64,000 bases of DNA from Microbacterium terricola (GTDB lineage Bacteria > Actinomycetota > Actinomycetes > Actinomycetales > Microbacteriaceae). A program made the translations under genes and the position numbers. The stretch lies in contig NZ_AP027141.1 in the NCBI RefSeq assembly GCF_027943945.1, positions 2,170,001 to 2,234,000 on the forward strand, given 5' to 3'. The notes below the pieces were generated by a model. That model was not told where the DNA came from and searched no databases. It was given only the letters and a program-made list of their open reading frames with translations. Positions 55,019 through 64,000 of this stretch are shown piece after piece (position 1 is the stretch's first letter; each line of letters starts with the position of its first letter).

Positions 55019-55081
55019 CGGCGTTCTCGCCCGTCATGTCATAGACCTGTGGTTGTCTGGGAAACCCGCCGAAAGGACAGC

Positions 55082-55906
55082 ATGGCGATCGAGTTCCGCT
55101 CCGTCACGAAGCGCTTCGCCGATGGCACCCTCGCCGTCGACGACTTCAGCCTCGTGATCCCCGCGCGCAAGACGACGGTGCTCGTCGGATCGTCGGGGTG
55201 CGGCAAGACCACGCTGCTCCGCATGATCAACCGGCTCGTCGAGCCCTCCGACGGCGAGATCCTCATCGACGACGAGCCCATCGCCGACCGCGACCCGGTG
55301 CTGCTGCGCCGCGGCATCGGCTACGTGCTGCAGAACGCCGGTCTGCTGCCGCACTTCACGGTGATCGACAACATCGCGACGGTTCCCGTCCTCACCGGCA
55401 CCGCACGCGCGGCGGCCCACCAGCGCGCCCTGGAGCTGATGGATGTCGTCGGCCTCGACCGTGCGCTCGCCGACCGCTACCCCAGCCAGCTCTCCGGTGG
55501 TCAGCAGCAGCGCGTGGGCGTGGCTCGCGGCCTCGCCGTCGACCCCAACATCCTGCTCATGGACGAGCCGTTCGGCGCGGTCGACCCGATCGTCCGCAAG
55601 GAGCTGCAGACCGAGACGCTGCGCCTGCAGCGCGACCTCGACAAGACGATCGTGTTCGTCACGCACGACATCGACGAGGCGTTCCTGCTCGGCGACCAGG
55701 TCGTCATCCTCGAGAAGGGCGCCAAGATCGCCCAGCTCGGCACCCCCGACGAGATCCTCGAGAACCCCGCAAGCGACTTCGTCGCCAGCTTCATCGGCGC
55801 CGACCGCGGCGCGCGTGCCCTGCACCGCAAGCAGACTCCCCGCGGTGTGGTGCTCGTCGACGGCACCGGGCGCACCCAGGGCGTGCTCGTCGAGGACCCC
55901 ACATGA
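55082..55906 (+). CDS. opuCA: Osmoprotectant ABC transporter, ATP-binding subunit
   Basis: 274 residues. Walker A GSSGCGKTT (36-44), LSGGQQQRV signature (about 139-147), Walker B ILLMDEPFGAVDP and switch His in VFVTHDIDEAF. The IGYVLQNAGLLPHFTV and GAVDPIVRKELQ segments are typical of OpuCA/ProV-like importers of glycine betaine, choline or carnitine; no CBS domains are present. AAAGGAC precedes the ATG at 55082. First gene of a four-gene operon. Confidence 0.92.
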   Translation: MAIEFRSVTKRFADGTLAVDDFSLVIPARKTTVLVGSSGCGKTTLLRMINRLVEPSDGEILIDDEPIADRDPVLLRRGIGYVLQNAGLLPHFTVIDNIATVPVLTGTARAAAHQRALELMDVVGLDRALADRYPSQLSGGQQQRVGVARGLAVDPNILLMDEPFGAVDPIVRKELQTETLRLQRDLDKTIVFVTHDIDEAFLLGDQVVILEKGAKIAQLGTPDEILENPASDFVASFIGADRGARALHRKQTPRGVVLVDGTGRTQGVLVEDPT

Positions 55907-56571
55907 CCTGGGTGCTCGACAACCTCGACCTCATCGGCCAGCTCACGCTCGATCATCTGCGGCAGAGCCTGATCGCGATCGTCCTCGGCTTCGTCCTCGC
56001 CGTGCCGGTCGGCTGGGCCGCTTTCCGCTTCACGAACTTGCGCGGCCCGGTGCTGACGACGGTGGGTCTGCTCTACACGATCCCCTCGATCGGGCTGTTC
56101 GGCCTCCTCGCGGCGGTGTTCGGCATCCCGTTCCTCTCCGAGCTGAACCTCGTCGTCGCCCTCACGATCTACGCCCTCGCGATCATGACCCGATCGGTGA
56201 CCGACGGCCTCGCCTCGGTCGACGGCACCACGCGCAGCGCCGCGGTCGCCGTCGGCTTCGGGCCATGGCGACGGTTCTGGGTGGTCGACATCCCCCTCGC
56301 GGGGCCCGTCCTGCTCGCCGGGCTGCGGGTGACGGCGGTGTCGACGATCTCGCTGGCCACCGTGGGCATCCTGATCGGGGTCGAGAACCTCGGCTACCTC
56401 TTCACGAACGGCTCGCAGCGCCGCATCATCGAGGAGGTGCTCGCCGGCGTCGTCGCCGTCGTCCTGATCGCCCTCGTCATCGACCTCATGCTCGTGCTGG
56501 TCGGGCGCGCGCTCATGCCCTGGTCGCGGCGCGTCCGCGCTCCCCGCGCACCGCGGGCGGTGACCGCATGA
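55903..56571 (+). CDS. opuCB: Osmoprotectant ABC transporter permease
   Basis: 222 residues with about six membrane helices and the OpuC-type pattern LRQSLIAIVLGFVLAVPVGW, LLYTIPSIGLFGLLAAVFGI, TRSVTDGLASVDGTTRSAAVAVGFGPWRRFWVVDIPLAGPVLLAGLR and TVGILIGVENLGYLF. The EAA-like loop is in the TRSVTDGL-to-PLAG segment. ATG overlaps the opuCA stop (ATGA). Confidence 0.92.
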   Translation: MTWVLDNLDLIGQLTLDHLRQSLIAIVLGFVLAVPVGWAAFRFTNLRGPVLTTVGLLYTIPSIGLFGLLAAVFGIPFLSELNLVVALTIYALAIMTRSVTDGLASVDGTTRSAAVAVGFGPWRRFWVVDIPLAGPVLLAGLRVTAVSTISLATVGILIGVENLGYLFTNGSQRRIIEEVLAGVVAVVLIALVIDLMLVLVGRALMPWSRRVRAPRAPRAVTA

Positions 56572-57296
56572 ACCTCTTCGCCGAGGCGTTCGCGTGGATC
56601 TTCTCGCCCGACCGCCTGACCGGATCCCTCACCCTCCCCACCGCGATCCTGCAGCATCTCGCCTTCACGTTCGGCTCCGTGCTCATCGCGGCGGTCATCG
56701 CGATCCCGCTGGGCTGGCTGATCGGCCACACGGGCAAGGGCAGGGAGTTCGCGGTGTTCCTCTCCGGCGCCGCGCGCGCGCTGCCCTCCCTCGGACTCAT
56801 CGTGCTCCTGGTCCTGCTGCTCGGGGTCGTGCACAAGACGGAGGCGGCCGTGGTCGCGTTCGTGCTCCTCGCGATCCCCTCGATCCTCGCGGGCGCCTAC
56901 ACCGGGTTCGAGGCGATCGACCGGAGCGTGATCGACGCCGGCCGCGCGATGGGCATGACCGAGTGGCAGATCCTCTGGAAGATCGAGGTGCCGCTGGGCC
57001 TGCCGCTGCTGATCGGCGGGCTGCGCTCGGCCACCCTGCAGGTGGTCGCCACCGTGACGATCGCGGCCTATGTCGGACTCGGCGGACTCGGCTTCTTCAT
57101 CCTGCAGGGCATTCCGCTGCGGCGCTTCGATCAGATCCTCGGCGCCAGCATCCTCGTCGTCGCGCTCGCGCTCGTCCTGGACGGCCTGTTCGCCCTGATG
57201 CAGCGCCTCGTCGTGCCCCGCGGCGTCGCCGCCCCGACCTCACTCACTCGCACCACCATCCCCAGGTCGCGCCCGCTCGCGGACGCGACCGCCTGA
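56568..57296 (+). CDS. opuCD: Osmoprotectant ABC transporter permease
   Basis: 242 residues, second permease: LQHLAFTFGSVLIAAVIAIPLGWLIGHTGKG, ARALPSLGLIVLLVLLLGV, SILAGAYTGFEAIDRSVIDAGRAMGMTEWQILWKIEVPLGLPLLIGGLR and TIAAYVGLGGLGFFI. Pairs with OpuCB in the membrane. ATG overlaps the opuCB stop (ATGA). Confidence 0.92.
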   Translation: MNLFAEAFAWIFSPDRLTGSLTLPTAILQHLAFTFGSVLIAAVIAIPLGWLIGHTGKGREFAVFLSGAARALPSLGLIVLLVLLLGVVHKTEAAVVAFVLLAIPSILAGAYTGFEAIDRSVIDAGRAMGMTEWQILWKIEVPLGLPLLIGGLRSATLQVVATVTIAAYVGLGGLGFFILQGIPLRRFDQILGASILVVALALVLDGLFALMQRLVVPRGVAAPTSLTRTTIPRSRPLADATA

Positions 57297-57330
57297 ACCG
57301 CACAGCCCGAAACACACAGGAGGCAACACC

Positions 57331-58245
57331 ATGTCCACAGCACGCACGCGCCTCGTCCTGGCGCTCGGGGCGACCGCCGTCGCCGCGCTCACCCTCGCCG
57401 GCTGCGCCTCGAGCGACCCGCTCGAAGGCGACACCGACAACTCGGCAGAGCCCAGCGAGTCCTCGACCATCGTCATCGGCTCGCAGGCGTACTACTCCAA
57501 CGAGATCATCGCGGAGATCTACGCGCAGGCGCTCGAGGGCGCCGGCTTCGAGGTCGAGCGGAAGTTCAACATCGGCCAGCGCGACGCCTACATCCCGTCG
57601 CTGGAGGACGGCTCGATCGATCTGTTCCCGGAGTACACCGGCAACCTGCTGCAGTTCTTCGACCCGGAGACGACGGCCACGACGTCTGAAGAGGTCTACG
57701 CCGCACTGCCGGACGCCCTTCCGGACGGCCTGACCGTACTCGACCAGTCCCCCGCCACCGACCAGGACTCGTACAACGTCACCGCGGCCTTCGCGGAGGA
57801 GAACAACCTGGTCTCGATCGGTGACCTCGCCGGCATCGACGGCCTGGTCCTCGGCGGCGCCCCCGAGCTGGAGGACCGCGAGTACGGACCTCGTGGCCTC
57901 AAGGAGGTCTACGGCGTGACCGTCGGCTTCGACGCCACCGCCGACACCACCGTGGATGAGCTCGTCGCCGGCAGCATCCAGGTCGCCAACGTCTACAGCG
58001 CCGACCCGCGCATCGAGACGGAGGACCTCGTCACGCTGGAAGACCCCGAGGGCCTGTTCCTGGCCTCGAACGTCGTGCCGATCGTGAGCGAGGACGTGGC
58101 CGACGAGGTCGCTGACGTCATCAACGCGGTCAGCGCCGCGCTCACGCCCGAGGGCCTCGTCGCGCTGAACGTGCAGTCGACCGTCGACAAGCGCTCCTCG
58201 GACGACATCGCCGCGGAGTGGCTGGCGGCCAACGACCTCGGCTGA
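57331..58245 (+). CDS. opuCC: Osmoprotectant ABC transporter substrate-binding lipoprotein
   Basis: 304 residues. Lipoprotein signal with lipobox LAGC (Cys24), then the OpuAC-type binding fold: IVIGSQAYYSNEIIAEIYAQALEGAGFEVERKFNIGQRDAYIPSLEDGSIDLFPEYTGNLLQFF. Captures the osmoprotectant outside the membrane. AGGAGG stands about 9 bases before the ATG at 57331. Last gene of the opuC operon, followed by a strong hairpin terminator. Confidence 0.92.
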   Translation: MSTARTRLVLALGATAVAALTLAGCASSDPLEGDTDNSAEPSESSTIVIGSQAYYSNEIIAEIYAQALEGAGFEVERKFNIGQRDAYIPSLEDGSIDLFPEYTGNLLQFFDPETTATTSEEVYAALPDALPDGLTVLDQSPATDQDSYNVTAAFAEENNLVSIGDLAGIDGLVLGGAPELEDREYGPRGLKEVYGVTVGFDATADTTVDELVAGSIQVANVYSADPRIETEDLVTLEDPEGLFLASNVVPIVSEDVADEVADVINAVSAALTPEGLVALNVQSTVDKRSSDDIAAEWLAANDLG

Positions 58246-58607: not shown

Positions 58608-59168
58608 TCAGTGCAGGAACTGGAGCGGGTCGAACTCGTCGATGGGGATCACCCGGATGCGCGGGAGCGGCGCCTCGAACGCCTTCGCGTCGTACTCGAG
58701 GTCGAACGACTCCACGCCGCCGATCGTGCTGAATCCGGCGTTGCGGAACTCTGCGAAGGCCAGCACGCCGAGGCGGCGGGAGCCATCGGCGAGCGCCCGC
58801 AGGTCGTCGACGAAGTCGCCGTCGTGGCTGACGAGGAGCACGTCGTCACCGCGGTCGCGCAGGGCGCGCAGGGTCCGCTGGATGGCGATGTCGACGACCT
58901 TCGCGTCGGCGGGACCGGACAGCGGCACCGGCTCGTAGCCGAGGGCGAGCAGCGCCTGCACGAACGTCATCGGCAGGGTGGTCGAGGCGTTCAGGAAGAA
59001 CAGGCCGCGCGCGGACTGGTTCCAGCGGTCGGCGATGAACGACAGCACGCGGTCCCACCGCGGCCGCTCATCGGGCTGCGGCCGCCGACCGAGGATCGAG
59101 TTGCCGAGGGTGGCGTCGATGTTCTCGCCGTCGACGAGAACCCATGTGCCGCGATCCGTGCCGTCCAC
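58608..59168 (-). CDS. NYN-domain (PIN-like) protein
   Basis: 186 residues. NYN/DUF88 fold with acidic residues placed for a metal-dependent RNase: WVLVDGENID (about 10-18), GPADAKVVDIAIQRTL (about 85-100) and LLVSHDGDFVDDLRALA (about 110-126). GTG start at 59168 with AGGGAGG upstream. It lies 42 bp downstream of the ABC transporter genes on the same strand; whether it is linked to them is not known. Confidence 0.85.
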   Translation of the reverse strand: MDGTDRGTWVLVDGENIDATLGNSILGRRPQPDERPRWDRVLSFIADRWNQSARGLFFLNASTTLPMTFVQALLALGYEPVPLSGPADAKVVDIAIQRTLRALRDRGDDVLLVSHDGDFVDDLRALADGSRRLGVLAFAEFRNAGFSTIGGVESFDLEYDAKAFEAPLPRIRVIPIDEFDPLQFLH

Positions 59169-59210: not shown

Positions 59211-59927
59211 CTATGGGTGCGCGGCGGCCGTCGGCGCCGGCTCGGTCGTCGCGGGTCGCAGGACGCCGTCGTGCAGTTCGAGCACGCGGTCCGCGCGGGC
59301 GAGGACCGACGGGTCATGGGTCGACAGCAGCACCGCGACGCCGTCATCGTGCGCGATCGACGCGATCAGCTCGATCATCGCCTCCGCCGTGTGCGAGTCG
59401 AGCTGACCGGTCGGCTCGTCCGCGAGGAGCACCCGCGCGGATCCGGCCAGGGCCCGTGCGATGCCGACCCGCTGCTGCTGGCCGCCCGACAGCTCCCCCG
59501 GACGCTGGCGGGCGTGGCCGGCGAGCCCGACGCGCTCGAGCAGGTGCGCCACCCTGGCGGACCGCTCCGCCGGGTCGACGCCGCGGATCCGCAGCGGCAG
59601 CTCGACGTTCTCCTCCGCGGAGAGTGCGCCGATCAGGCCGAACGACTGGAACACGTAGCCGATGTCGTCGCGCCGGACGCGGTCGACGTCCCGCTCGGGC
59701 GCCTCGGTCAGCGTGACGTCGCCGACGCGCACGGTCCCCGTCGTCGGGGGCTGGATGCCGCCCAGCACGTGCAGCAGCGTCGTCTTGCCCGCACCGGACG
59801 GTCCGACGAGCACGACGAACTCGCCGGCGTGCAGCTCGAGCGAGGCGTCGGCGAGCGCGTGCACGTCACCGGCGGGCGTGCGGTGCACGACGGAGAGGTC
59901 GGATGCGGCGAGCACCGGCTCAGTCAT
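59211..59927 (-). CDS. ABC exporter ATPase (MacB/LolD type)
   Basis: 238 residues. Walker A GPSGAGKTT, LSGGQQQRVGIARALA, Walker B VLLADEPTG and H-loop LLSTHDPSV; IGYVFQSFGLIGALSAEENVELPL is typical of MacB/LolD/FtsE-like ATPases that work with FtsX-type permeases. Last of a four-gene set (two permeases, two ATPases); its start overlaps the AbrB-fused ATPase gene by 8 bp. Confidence 0.9.
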   Translation of the reverse strand: MTEPVLAASDLSVVHRTPAGDVHALADASLELHAGEFVVLVGPSGAGKTTLLHVLGGIQPPTTGTVRVGDVTLTEAPERDVDRVRRDDIGYVFQSFGLIGALSAEENVELPLRIRGVDPAERSARVAHLLERVGLAGHARQRPGELSGGQQQRVGIARALAGSARVLLADEPTGQLDSHTAEAMIELIASIAHDDGVAVLLSTHDPSVLARADRVLELHDGVLRPATTEPAPTAAAHP

Positions 59928-60927
59928 GGGTCTCTCCCTGGTGGTCGCGCAGCGAGCGCCGCGTCGGCGGTGCCGTGGCGGCGGCCGTCGTGTCGGCGGG
60001 CGGTGCGTCGGCGGGCGCTGCGTCGACCGGCGCTCCCTCTGCCGGCGGGTCGACTCGCTCGACGGGCGAGTCGCCCCGCCACACGCCCACGTGGTCGGGG
60101 TTGAGCTCGAGGCGCACCCGGTCGCGCAGCGACAGCTGGCGCATGTAGTCGGTCGGCAGCTGCATCCGCCCGACCTTGTCGAGCACGACGAACTCCTCGG
60201 CCATCGCATGCTCCTGGCCGGTCTCGTCCGTATGCGTCCACCGCAGCACCTCGGTCGAGGTGCGCCCGTCGCGGATCTGGACGGTGCGCTGCACGTGCTC
60301 AGAGACCGCGGGGTCGTGCGTCACGATGAGCGCGGTGGTGCCGAGTTCGCGGTTGACCGCCTCGAAGGTCGCGAGCACTTCGGCCGACGCGTGCTCGTCG
60401 AGGTCGCCGGTGGGCTCGTCCGCGAGCAGCACGCGCGGCGCGTTGGCGAGCGCGACCGCGATGGCCACCCGCTGCTGCTGACCGCCGGACAGCTCGCCCG
60501 GTCGGCGGTCGGCGACGTCGCCGACCCCGGTCAGCTCGAGGAGGTCGCGCGATCGCGCCGGGTCGCTGCGGTCGCCGCCGATCGCCCGGGCCAGCTGCAC
60601 GTTCTCGACCGCCGAGAGGTACGGCAGCAGGTTCCGGGCCGTCTGCTGCCAGACGAATCCGACGACCTCGCGCCGGTAGTCCACGCGCTCCCGCGCGGAG
60701 AGCGAGGGCAGGTGCCTGCCCGCGACGGTCGCGGAGCCTGCGGTGGGCTGATCGAGCCCGGACAGGATCGACAGCAGTGTCGACTTGCCTGAGCCTGAGG
60801 CGCCCACGAGCGCGACCAGCTCGCCGCTGCCGATCACGAGGTCGAGCCCCTGCAGGGCCTGCACCTCGATGTCGGCGACCGCGAAGATGCGCACCAGCCC
60901 TTCGCAGACGATGTCGGGTTCGGTCAT
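59920..60927 (-). CDS. ABC exporter ATPase fused to an AbrB-like domain
   Basis: 335 residues. N-terminal MacB-type ATPase (1-225): Walker A GASGSGKST (42-50), LSGGQQQRVAIAVALA, Walker B VLLADEPTGDLD, VTHDPAV. After a short link residues 245-285 read VVLDKVGRMQLPTDYMRQLS and then LRDRVRLELNPDHVGVWR, which has the V-D-K-x-G-R...L-P...R..L-x-L...V pattern of the SpoVT/AbrB swapped-hairpin domain. A Pro/Ala-rich tail follows (286-320). Overlaps the permease gene (ATGA). The fusion is unusual. Confidence 0.85.
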   Translation of the reverse strand: MTEPDIVCEGLVRIFAVADIEVQALQGLDLVIGSGELVALVGASGSGKSTLLSILSGLDQPTAGSATVAGRHLPSLSARERVDYRREVVGFVWQQTARNLLPYLSAVENVQLARAIGGDRSDPARSRDLLELTGVGDVADRRPGELSGGQQQRVAIAVALANAPRVLLADEPTGDLDEHASAEVLATFEAVNRELGTTALIVTHDPAVSEHVQRTVQIRDGRTSTEVLRWTHTDETGQEHAMAEEFVVLDKVGRMQLPTDYMRQLSLRDRVRLELNPDHVGVWRGDSPVERVDPPAEGAPVDAAPADAPPADTTAAATAPPTRRSLRDHQGETHD

Positions 60928-63662
60928 CAGTCCTCCTCCGTTCGCAGGACGGTGGCCATCGAGGTGGTCCGCGCGCTGATCACGCCGGCGACGACCGCCA
61001 GCGCCAGCGCGACCACCACGACGGCGATGAGTGTTCCGGTCAGCACCGGGTCGACGGCGAGCGCGGGTTGCCGCCCCCCGCCCGTGAACGGCCGCAGGTC
61101 GATGGACGTCACCACGAGCAGCGGCAGCACGGCTCCCAGCACGACGCCGCCGACGAGTGCGGTCAGGCCGAGCGGCGCGAACTCCCACGCGACGACCGCG
61201 CGGCCGCGCCGGCGGTCGAGCCCGAGGATCCGCAGCAGCGTGATCACGCGCGAGCGGGCGTCCTTGGAGACACCTGCGACGAGCAGCACGGCGATCACCG
61301 ACAGCACCACAGCGAGCCCGAGCGCCGCGAACAGGACGAACCGCAGCGCGGTGACGGCGGGCGAGGCCTGGATCTCGGCGAGGGCGTCATCGAGGATGCG
61401 CACGCTGTGCGTCGTGCCGATGACCTCGCCCAGTGCCGCGGCGGCGGCCGCCGCATCCGTCCCGTCCGCGAGGTCGACGACGACCGCGCGGGGGAAGAAG
61501 CCGAGGCCGGTGAGGGCCTGGTAGTCGGTCCGGTCGAGCAGCACGAACTCCGACGCCTGCGGCAGTCCGAGCACCCGGTCGACCGTGGCGACGACGTCGA
61601 CCGGCGTTCCGGCCAGCGTCGTCGCGCCCTGGCCGAGCTCTGCGGCGAGCGCGGTGGACTCGACGATCTGGGCGGGGTCGGCGCCGGCGGTGACCCGACC
61701 GACCGGGACGGCGCCCACCATCCCCTGCTGGATGGCCGTGAACGCCGCGATGTCGGTGACGTAGGCCTGGGCGCTGGCCCGGTCGTCCGGCCCGACCACG
61801 TCGACGTAGTCGCCGCGCAGCACCCCGGCGACCTCCACCACGCCGTCGACGTCGCGCATGGCGGCGATCATCTCGTCGTCGAAGTACGGCCCCGTCAGCT
61901 GGAGGTCTCCGCCGACGGCACGCTGCGCGGCGGCTGTCCCCCCACGGTCGACCGTGGCCAGCACCAGCGAGGAGAACACCGCGATCGCCACAGCGACGAT
62001 CATCGCGAGCACGGCGGTCGTCCCGGCGGCGGGGTCGCGCAGGCTGCGCGCCGAGCCGACGAGCGAGGCCACCCCTCGTCCACCGCGGGCCGCGCGGTAG
62101 GTGGCGGCGATCGGCAGCGGGTGCAGTCGCACGAAGATGAGGGCGAGCGCGACGGTTGCGAGCAGAGGCGCGACGACGACCAGCGGGTCGATGCCCTCGG
62201 TCGCGGCGCCGACCCCGCGGACCACGAGCTGGACGACGGCGACGACCGCGAGGAGGACGACGACCGTCTCGAGGATGCGGGCGGCCCGACTGCGGACCGG
62301 TGCGTCGAGGTCGGCGCGGCCGCCGCGCTCGAGGACCGCCGGACGCAGGCTGAACGCGAGAGCGAGAGCGGGCGCGAGGCCCACCAGCACCGCGACGGCC
62401 GTGGGCACCGGCCCCGCGTCGTGCGGAGTCACCGCGACGCCGATGACCGCGCCGATGACCGCGGCGGGCAGACCGAGCAGCAGGCCCTCGCCGAACAGCA
62501 GCCGGCGGAGCCGGGCGAGCGGCGCACCGCGTGCGGAGAGGAGGGCCAGGTCGGTGCGTCGGCGGCGGATCATCAGGGTCGCGGCCAGTACGACGAGCGC
62601 GACGCTCACGGCGAGCGGCCCGACCGCGGCGACGGCGAGGATCGCGCCGGCGGCGTTCGTGCGCGCGAGCGCCGTCGACAGCACGGTGACGACGTCGCTG
62701 GAGAACCGCATCCGCAGCTGGCCGGTGGAATCCAGTGGGACGGAGGTGCTCGTCGCCGCGCGGAACGCCGACAGCATCTCGGTCGGCTCCTGGCCGACGG
62801 CCGCGGTTCCGTCGATCGGGTACCAGGCGATGACCCAGGGCTGCTCGCTCAGCGCCGTCGTCGACGCGAGATCGGCCCACGCGGTCGGGGTCACCCAGGC
62901 CACCGAGGTCGCGGTGGGGCGCCGGTTGCCGTCGTCGAAGACGGTCGCGGTGAGCGCGGTCGGCAGGTGCAGCCACCGGTCGGCGGCGGGGTCGACGGCC
63001 TCGACCGTGCCGGCGAGCTCGTACACCGGGAAGATCTCGTTCCATCCCTGGTCGAGGTGCGAGCTGTTGACGGGGACGCCGCGGCGTTCGCCCACCGGCC
63101 ACTTCATGGTGGCCGCGGCATCGGCGCTCAGCACGATCTGCACGACCGATGAGTCGGTCGCGTCGTCCGGCCATGCGCCCTCGACGATCGTCAGGTGCTG
63201 CTGCGCCGTCGGCTCGGTGAGCACCTGCACGAGCGACAGCGGGGCGTCCGCGGGAAGGCTCTCGGGAGCGACCGGGAACGGCTCGGCATACTCCGCGAAC
63301 TCGGCGGGACCGGCCAGCGACCGCAGCGCCGGCTCGAAGGCGTCCCGGTTGTCGGCGAGTGCCTGACCGACCGCGCCGAGCACGGGAGCGGCGCCGTCAT
63401 CCCACTCCGCGGCGATGACGGGATCGGTGGGCGGCCCGAAAGCGGGCAGTCCGATCGCGGAGCCGGACAGGTCGCGCGACGTCGCCGGCACGCCGGAGAT
63501 CTGATGCGCCACCTCGTCGCGCACGACCCCGACGAGTGCGCGAGGAGCGGCCGCGATCACGAACGCGGCGAGCACGGTGAGCGCGACGATGACCAGCGCG
63601 GCACTGCGCGGCGTCGCGAAACGGCGGCGCGTGAGGGCGAAGAGGCCAGGTGTCCTGCTCAC
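60927..63662 (-). CDS. FtsX-like ABC exporter permease
   Basis: 911 residues. Membrane segments near the N-terminus (about 15-37), a large extracellular domain (about 60-330), a first FtsX core (about 345-480, AVSVALVVLAATLMIRRRRTDLALLSARGAPLARLRRLLFGEGLLLGLPAAV), a middle segment pair (about 505-560), a second extracellular domain and a C-terminal FtsX core (about 775-895, LLVAGVSKDARSRVITLLRILGLDRRRGRAVVAWEF). GTG start overlaps the next gene upstream (GTGA). Exports an unknown substrate with the two ATPases. Confidence 0.9.
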   Translation of the reverse strand: MSRTPGLFALTRRRFATPRSAALVIVALTVLAAFVIAAAPRALVGVVRDEVAHQISGVPATSRDLSGSAIGLPAFGPPTDPVIAAEWDDGAAPVLGAVGQALADNRDAFEPALRSLAGPAEFAEYAEPFPVAPESLPADAPLSLVQVLTEPTAQQHLTIVEGAWPDDATDSSVVQIVLSADAAATMKWPVGERRGVPVNSSHLDQGWNEIFPVYELAGTVEAVDPAADRWLHLPTALTATVFDDGNRRPTATSVAWVTPTAWADLASTTALSEQPWVIAWYPIDGTAAVGQEPTEMLSAFRAATSTSVPLDSTGQLRMRFSSDVVTVLSTALARTNAAGAILAVAAVGPLAVSVALVVLAATLMIRRRRTDLALLSARGAPLARLRRLLFGEGLLLGLPAAVIGAVIGVAVTPHDAGPVPTAVAVLVGLAPALALAFSLRPAVLERGGRADLDAPVRSRAARILETVVVLLAVVAVVQLVVRGVGAATEGIDPLVVVAPLLATVALALIFVRLHPLPIAATYRAARGGRGVASLVGSARSLRDPAAGTTAVLAMIVAVAIAVFSSLVLATVDRGGTAAAQRAVGGDLQLTGPYFDDEMIAAMRDVDGVVEVAGVLRGDYVDVVGPDDRASAQAYVTDIAAFTAIQQGMVGAVPVGRVTAGADPAQIVESTALAAELGQGATTLAGTPVDVVATVDRVLGLPQASEFVLLDRTDYQALTGLGFFPRAVVVDLADGTDAAAAAAALGEVIGTTHSVRILDDALAEIQASPAVTALRFVLFAALGLAVVLSVIAVLLVAGVSKDARSRVITLLRILGLDRRRGRAVVAWEFAPLGLTALVGGVVLGAVLPLLVVTSIDLRPFTGGGRQPALAVDPVLTGTLIAVVVVALALAVVAGVISARTTSMATVLRTEED

Positions 63663-64000
63663 TCGTCCTCCCGCAGCAGCCGGGCGAGGCCGGTCGGCAC
63701 CCGCACGGTCGAGACGATGAGTGCGCAGATCGCAGCCGTCGCGAGGAGGGATGCTGTCAGCAGCCCCCACGGCACGACCAGCGGAACGGGGTACGCCTCC
63801 GGGATCGTGCCGTACGCGGCGCGGACCAGCGGCGGCACGGCGAACCATGCGGTGACGGCGCCGGCGGCGAGTCCGCCGACCACCCCGAACCCGATGGCCA
63901 GCAGATCCTCCCTGGTGCGGACGCCCCCGGCCCGGCGTCGGCCGAGGCCCATCACCGCCAGGAGTGCCAGCTCGCGCGCGTCGCCCCGCCCGCGTGAGCG
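63659..64000 (-). CDS. FtsX-like permease, 3' part (cut by window edge)
   Basis: 114 codons visible, no start in the window. Open frame to base 64000 starts RSRGRGDARELALLAVMGLGRRRAGGVRTREDLLAIGFGVVGG, the arginine-rich cytoplasmic loop and helix typical of FtsX permeases, followed by VPWGLLTASLLATAAICALIVSTV. Stop overlaps the second permease start. Likely the first permease of the exporter. Confidence 0.82.
   Translation of the reverse strand, partial: RSRGRGDARELALLAVMGLGRRRAGGVRTREDLLAIGFGVVGGLAAGAVTAWFAVPPLVRAAYGTIPEAYPVPLVVPWGLLTASLLATAAICALIVSTVRVPTGLARLLREDE

Follow-up and report, generated by a model that had tools for sequence, protein, structure and literature searches.

Two groups of described proteins meet in the locus reported here. 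Among ATP-binding cassette (ABC) systems of Type VII, LolCDE combines two FtsX-type permeases with the ATPase LolD, and the YbbAP(-TesA) and BceAB systems combine a LolD-like ATPase with permeases that have two FtsX stretches and at least ten predicted transmembrane (TM) segments, according to the descriptions in PMC12646458 and PMC5985334. The passages concerned present YbbP and BceB as single 10-TM chains of duplicated origin, with YbbP binding two ATPases. AbrB and SpoVT, by comparison, are transcription factors, and the account of cradle-loop barrels in PMC4739770 states that such a barrel needs two copies of its unit, supplied in AbrB by a homodimer with one copy per chain and in MraZ within one chain. 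We describe a four-gene operon of Microbacterium terricola, FtsX1-FtsX2-ATP1-ATP2, in which the ABC ATPase ATP1 carries a C-terminal tail modelled as one AbrB/MraZ-type unit. Apart from part of FtsX1, the operon lies in the window, the whole 64,000-nucleotide stretch of DNA analysed (NZ_AP027141.1, positions 2,170,001 to 2,234,000 of the forward strand).

Judged by sequence, the operon is a Type VII (MacB/LolCDE/YbbAP-like) ABC system of Actinomycetota with an extra tail, and ATP1 is a LolD/MacB-class ABC ATPase. It resembles YbbAP(-TesA) and BceAB in its LolD-like ATPase and in its permeases, which both score above the Pfam FtsX cut-off and in which crude hydropathy places 14 (FtsX1) and about 10 (FtsX2) TM segments. 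It differs from them in having two different permeases and two different ATPases, one of them AbrB-tailed, and no conserved gene was found downstream of it in 80 loci (largest cluster 16/80), the region upstream of FtsX1 being hardly covered. As in LolCDE, there are two FtsX-type permeases and a LolD-like ATPase, and LolD_lipo_ex is the best NCBIfam match of ATP1 (7.7e-58); its score of 195.6 bits, however, is far under the equivalog cut-off of 307.75, and the present operon has two ATPases, a tail, and permeases of about 900 residues compared with about 400 in LolCDE (LolE chains 398-414). The closest solved sequences to ATP1 are the ATPase domains of the mycobacterial DppD and Rv1281c chains, followed by MacB, LolD and YbbA. 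Stand-alone solved ATPases are short (LolD 218-241 residues, YbbA 242), in agreement with the original prediction that this class normally ends at about 230 residues, and ATP1 therefore has roughly 100 residues extra.

No ABC ATPase fused to an AbrB-type unit appeared among the full-text literature matches listed, a search outside which lie most subscription journals and InterPro-like domain databases; within that scope, the fusion is undescribed, as had been supposed. Public names of tailed ATPases are generic. We class the tailed ATPase operon with the Type VII ABC systems, as a new variant, and not with the AbrB or MraZ family proteins. The tail also makes it simple to recognise, by sequence, members of a transporter family now annotated only generically.

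Predicted fold of the ATP1 tail

Computation supports the assignment of ATP1 residues 244-284 to a single beta-alpha-beta unit of AbrB/MraZ type, which makes up half of a swapped-hairpin barrel. Profile-profile comparison (hhalign) of the tail with AbrB/MraZ-type families gave scores exceeding those of 200 shuffles, and shuffled controls also failed in hidden Markov model (HMM) counts, which rules out a chance resemblance to this fold. In the AlphaFold2 models, the strands and helix of a beta-alpha-beta-beta unit follow one another in the expected order. Fold searches used the tail model as query. Foldseek placed AbrB and SpoVT at the top (1yfb, root-mean-square deviation 2.0 over 45 columns, probability 0.98; 2w1t, probability 0.97), and all 17 VIA-align entries were of AbrB/SpoVT/MazE/MraZ type, the type being assigned by title or general background. 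Structure prediction and fold search thus place an AbrB-type fold where the original prediction had proposed an AbrB-like swapped-hairpin domain fused to an exporter ATPase, and the N-terminal domain of AbrB/SpoVT is the closest structural match.

At the sequence level, two sub-types of tail, type A and the compact type B described below, share an invariant D, GR, Q, P and later R in 28 chosen members, which display the D..GR..(x)P signature. Library scans of these 28 were headed by AbrB-superfamily models (PF02381 in 14 and PF04014 in 3; NF001476 in 12 and TIGR01439 in 5). In sequence and profile comparisons the type A tail matched MraZ best, aligning with the C-terminal unit of MraZ over 35-43 residues. 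The D..GR..P hairpin could instead be a local sequence resemblance of independent origin without the AbrB fold. Consistent with this, the single window sequence reaches no curated cut-off: the window protein and pieces of its tail scored 13.8-17.4 bits with Pfam MraZ (PF02381), whose cut-off is 23, and MazE_antitoxin (PF04014) was absent from their Pfam matches, so the tail is not filed in either family. Single Foldseek and VIA-align scores are also weak individually, and a PDB sequence search with a combined A+B profile found the class III adenylate cyclase 5o5k (E 0.0028) and listed no AbrB-type chain. The 5o5k match, however, spans only 27 profile positions, and the failure of the shuffles, the lead of AbrB-superfamily models in both library scans and the uniform VIA-align entries all speak for the fold. 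Local resemblance is strongly disfavoured, and we regard it as very improbable.

Between the ATPase domain and the module lies a hairpin linker, with strands at residues 222-233 and 239-247 in the ATP1 model. Block means of the predicted local distance difference test (pLDDT) were 83-98 over the ATPase domain (residues 1-222) and 51-73 past residue 290. Among 76 sequences, which were collected via the tail itself, mean pairwise identity was 0.679 for the ATPase, 0.610 for the linker, 0.672 for the module and 0.150 for the extension, whose occupancy was 0.50. The ratio of nonsynonymous to synonymous polymorphism (pN/pS) across eight close sequences, the window's own included, was 0.19, 0.14, 0.29 and 0.75 in the same order. 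These values indicate that the module is under purifying selection and the extension hardly; a pseudogene or read-through origin of the tail is ruled out by the values for module, linker and extension. The extension (residues 285-335) is probably disordered.

Constancy, distribution and origin of the fusion

Searching the species collection with a tail-derived pattern yielded at least 525 confirmed relatives, of which the best 80 make up the named loci. Having been found through the tail, these carry it in 80/80 cases by construction. Their hosts include Microbacterium, Agromyces, Leifsonia and Cryobacterium; Ruania, Promicromonospora, Cellulosimicrobium, Georgenia, Jiangella, Streptomyces and others are also represented. 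The partner genes named at the outset, two FtsX permeases and a second ATPase without the tail, were confirmed as an operon: a second ATPase adjoins ATP1 in 78/80 loci, and this downstream ATPase (ATP2) was tailed in none of the 78 in a recount made without excluding tails. At least one FtsX gene lies upstream of ATP1 in 78/80 loci and two in 69/80, several of the remainder ending at contig edges. All four regular expressions for catalytic motifs matched in 72/80 ATP1 and 73/78 ATP2 proteins, and the others miss one or more.

Two further searches were blind to the tail. With the ATPase part as query, 41 matches were obtained in 37 of 197 class genomes; all 30 fetched loci, the window's own included, carry the tail, and ATP2 is adjacent in 28 of them. 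With FtsX2 as query, 31 of 99 genomes had a match, and every one of the 16 fetched loci above 80 bits (L182-L197, the window's own included) adjoins a tailed ATPase, the 80-bit line having been set after the scores were known. Fourteen fetched FtsX2 loci scored 50 bits or less. Seven of them have an ATPase without the tail and seven have no ATPase within the flank; one of the genomes (G026) has a tailed ATPase a few kilobases off. These fourteen are taken as other FtsX systems or as uncovered. The tail is thus conserved among orthologs (30/30 and 16/16 loci), and from these comparisons we consider it a fixed, not optional, part of the four-gene operon.

Occurrence of the operon is patchy among the closest relatives (13/38 genomes, the window's own included). 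A phylum-wide tail search gave hits in at least 16/396 genomes, scoring having been limited to 15 candidates in each; one of the 16 (G050) proved to hold a true MraZ, at the same place as its MraZ match, and the tail in another (G292) is putative. Within the M. terricola genome, searched for two families only, PF04014 had no match and PF02381 had none beyond the two units of a single MraZ gene. The same genome contains the complete four-gene operon a second time, in diverged form, at about C1:670950-678090 (locus L024, about 2948-10090 of C1:668000-682000), whose tailed ATPase is 58% identical over residues 3-293 and has its own tail.

In the compact type B tail, only a short join separates the module from the ATPase, and the module reaches the C-terminus or stops close to it, with the pattern SVIDEAGRIQLPP...VRI.PP. 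Two partly overlapping sets of 47 and 22 type B proteins were collected, mostly metagenomic (P0121-P0182); one derives from a metagenome-assembled genome labelled Actinomycetota and one from the Actinomycetota genome G269. The type B profile matched type A with probability 99, MraZ with 76 and AbrB with 79, the maxima of 100 shuffles being 24 and 25. In the type B locus L212, the tailed ATPase is preceded by a long TM-rich gene and followed by a second ATPase.

Phylogenetic trees were built on a chosen subset comprising 26 of the 80 named loci together with type B, paralogue and outgroup sequences, and monophyly of the tailed forms was assessed unrooted. Both tailed forms fell in one clade, with FastTree support of 0.937 (three outgroups) and 0.915 and ultrafast bootstrap (UFBoot) support of 91 (thirteen outgroups in both). 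The second ATPases formed a separate clade (FastTree 0.933), supported at 0.738 by FastTree and 98 by UFBoot when five g21/Streptomyces genes were added. Since both tailed forms share one clade, a single acquisition of the tail before the split of types A and B explains the trees best. In many Actinomycetota the motor of an ABC system bears a fixed transcription-factor fold.

An unusual arrangement was seen on an Actinotalea ferrariae contig (L170, 4858-6698), where two tandem open reading frames (ORFs) with tail hits (76.9 and 105.3 bits) are followed by a tail-less ATPase, with no FtsX hit upstream. This may be a duplicated tailed ATPase.

DNA contacts and the proposed role of the tail

The DNA contacts proposed for AbrB in the relevant part of PMC4022651 are R8, R15, R23 and R24. 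Lysine or arginine occupies the equivalent positions, in this order, in 0, 50, 3 and 5 of 50 type A tails and in 0, 26, 0 and 11 of 26 type B tails. The corresponding counts in 26 AbrB/MazE sequences are 15, 13, 23 and 18; of these sequences, the 13 with a D..GR motif (the D..GR AbrB subset) score 13/13 at all four positions. MraZ keeps only R15 and R23, in 30 and 29 of 30 N-terminal units and in 30 and 26 of 30 C-terminal units. For MraZ, the type B tails and the D..GR AbrB subset, the R15 count is a consequence of how the alignment was anchored. Because MraZ itself keeps only R15 and R23, R23 is the discriminating loss; MraZ differs from the tail in this residue and in having two units per chain, the tail being one unit on an ATPase. 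The window protein has V247, R254, M262 and R263 at these positions and so keeps two of the four, but across the tails the AbrB-type arginine set is absent and only the R15 equivalent is kept throughout, which sets the family apart from AbrB/SpoVT. The AbrB R15A variant is described as still binding DNA and as shifting oligomers, so that keeping R15 by itself says little in favour of DNA binding. Net charge gave no separation of the tail and AbrB groups.

DNA binding by the tail is unlikely, given that three of the four AbrB contact arginines, including one kept by MraZ, are mostly lost across the family. Were the tail nevertheless a true DNA-binding domain, the motor could tether or sequester a transcription-factor fold and report the transport state to gene expression, perhaps at its own promoter. 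The fold is indeed shared with the DNA-binding AbrB, SpoVT and MraZ, the GR arginine is invariant, R270 and R272 are conserved, residue 251 is lysine or arginine in 48/50 tails, and the window protein has R263. These features are outweighed by the loss of the R8, R23 and R24 equivalents in most type A tails, most clearly that of R23 (3/50 in type A and 0/26 in type B, against 29 and 26 of 30 in MraZ). Moreover, the 80 loci show no conserved downstream gene, with coverage upstream of FtsX1 slight, and inspection by eye of the region upstream of the operon in five genomes, a weak test, revealed no obvious operator and only a -10-like element. We judge this explanation improbable. The original prediction had left the choice between a transcription-factor fold and a protein-docking module; docking or dimerisation fits the data better.

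Since AbrB-type barrels take two copies of the unit and ATP1 has one and ATP2 none, pairing of two ATP1 chains through their tails, within one complex or between two permeases, is the most likely role by analogy. Our preferred reading, held with middling confidence, is a Type VII ATPase with an acquired half-barrel, the ATP1 tails pairing as a cytoplasmic clamp that does not bind DNA. In this reading the motor subunit has permanently acquired one AbrB/MraZ-type beta-alpha-beta unit, and two such tails would combine into a single barrel that clamps the complex on the cytoplasmic side. This barrel could hold an ATP1 homodimer beneath one permease, or could bridge an FtsX1-based and an FtsX2-based ATP1:ATP2 transporter; the bridge is suggested by the resemblance of each FtsX protein to a duplicated full permease of the YbbP/BceB kind. 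In either case the clamp would determine how the machine assembles and how its ATPases are coupled, and would not bind DNA. A bolder form, in which two tails form a barrel that locks the FtsX1- and FtsX2-based Type VII transporters into a four-ATPase supercomplex, the transcription-factor fold serving as a mechanical coupler, is offered tentatively and seems unlikely as a whole. The presence of one half-barrel-bearing ATPase provides a concrete, testable reason for the two ATPases and two duplicated permeases of each operon, and pairing, if true, would open a new route to higher-order Type VII assemblies. Coevolution analysis of 251 tails (effective number of sequences 47.5) returned near-invariant columns only.

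C-terminal regulatory domains gate the importer ATPases MalK and MetN. The tail might likewise be a docking or sensing half-barrel that works with a different partner, be it a ligand, a nucleotide or a protein of the cytoplasm, and gates the ATPase allosterically. Such a role would suit the linker, which is conserved and which the model shows as ordered, and the compact type B tail, which sits closer to the ATPase core and so suggests a defined geometry. However, no conserved partner gene lies downstream of the operon in the 80 loci, and AbrB-type units usually complete their barrel with a second copy, as described in PMC4739770. We therefore consider docking or sensing a possible but rather doubtful alternative to pairing of the ATP1 tails.

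Operons lacking an adjacent ATP2 were considered as proof of an ATP1 homodimer. Six genomes have no same-strand ATP2 next door, two of Streptomyces (L149, L174) and four of one genus (G387, G404, G059, G369). An ATP2-clade gene is present in five of these genomes, either elsewhere or, in G059, next to the operon in convergent orientation, which weakens this argument; in the sixth (G662, the source of L149) no gene in the ATP2 clade was found. Loci without a same-strand ATP2 adjoining the tailed ATPase include L250 and L252 as well as L149 and L174.

Operon layout and neighbouring genes

Coordinates of the operon and of the parts of ATP1 are given in the table. The four genes overlap, in turn, by 4, 1 and 8 nucleotides (junctions judged by eye), which suggests that FtsX1, FtsX2, ATP1 and ATP2 are translationally coupled.

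Table. Features of the FtsX1-FtsX2-ATP1-ATP2 operon, in window positions
Feature	Positions	Strand	Evidence or remarks
FtsX1 permease, C-terminal end (893 aa; gene runs to ~66340, outside the window)	63659..64000	-	Pfam FtsX 4.7e-07, 2 stretches
FtsX2 permease (~911 aa, GTG at 63662)	60927..63662	-	Pfam FtsX 5.3e-15, 2 stretches
ATP1 ORF, 335 residues	59920-60927	-	ABC ATPase, linker, predicted swapped-hairpin module and C-terminal extension
ABC ATPase domain of ATP1, residues 1-222	60262..60927	-	Pfam ABC_tran 7.9e-32; Walker A, signature, Walker B and H-loop present
Conserved hairpin linker of ATP1, residues 223-243	60199..60261	-	Identity 0.61, pN/pS 0.14, model
Predicted AbrB/MraZ-type swapped-hairpin half-barrel of ATP1, residues 244-284	60076..60198	-	hhalign, HMM counts, AlphaFold2 with Foldseek/VIA-align
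Variable C-terminal extension of ATP1, residues 285-335, and stop	59920..60075	-	Low identity, half gapped, low pLDDT
ATP2, second ABC ATPase, 238 aa, without tail	59211..59927	-	Pfam ABC_tran 9.6e-34

A TAGRGTG element is common to five genomes (L273-L277), about 20-40 bases upstream of FtsX1, and is probably the -10 promoter element of a nearly leaderless transcript. Directly downstream of ATP2, at 58608-59168 on the minus strand, lies a gene whose 186-residue product has the motif VLVDGENID close to its N-terminus and is a putative NYN-like nuclease. An ABC operon on the plus strand (55034-58245), encoding an ATPase, permeases and a substrate-binding lipoprotein, runs toward the four-gene operon and presumably resembles an osmoprotectant-type ABC importer.
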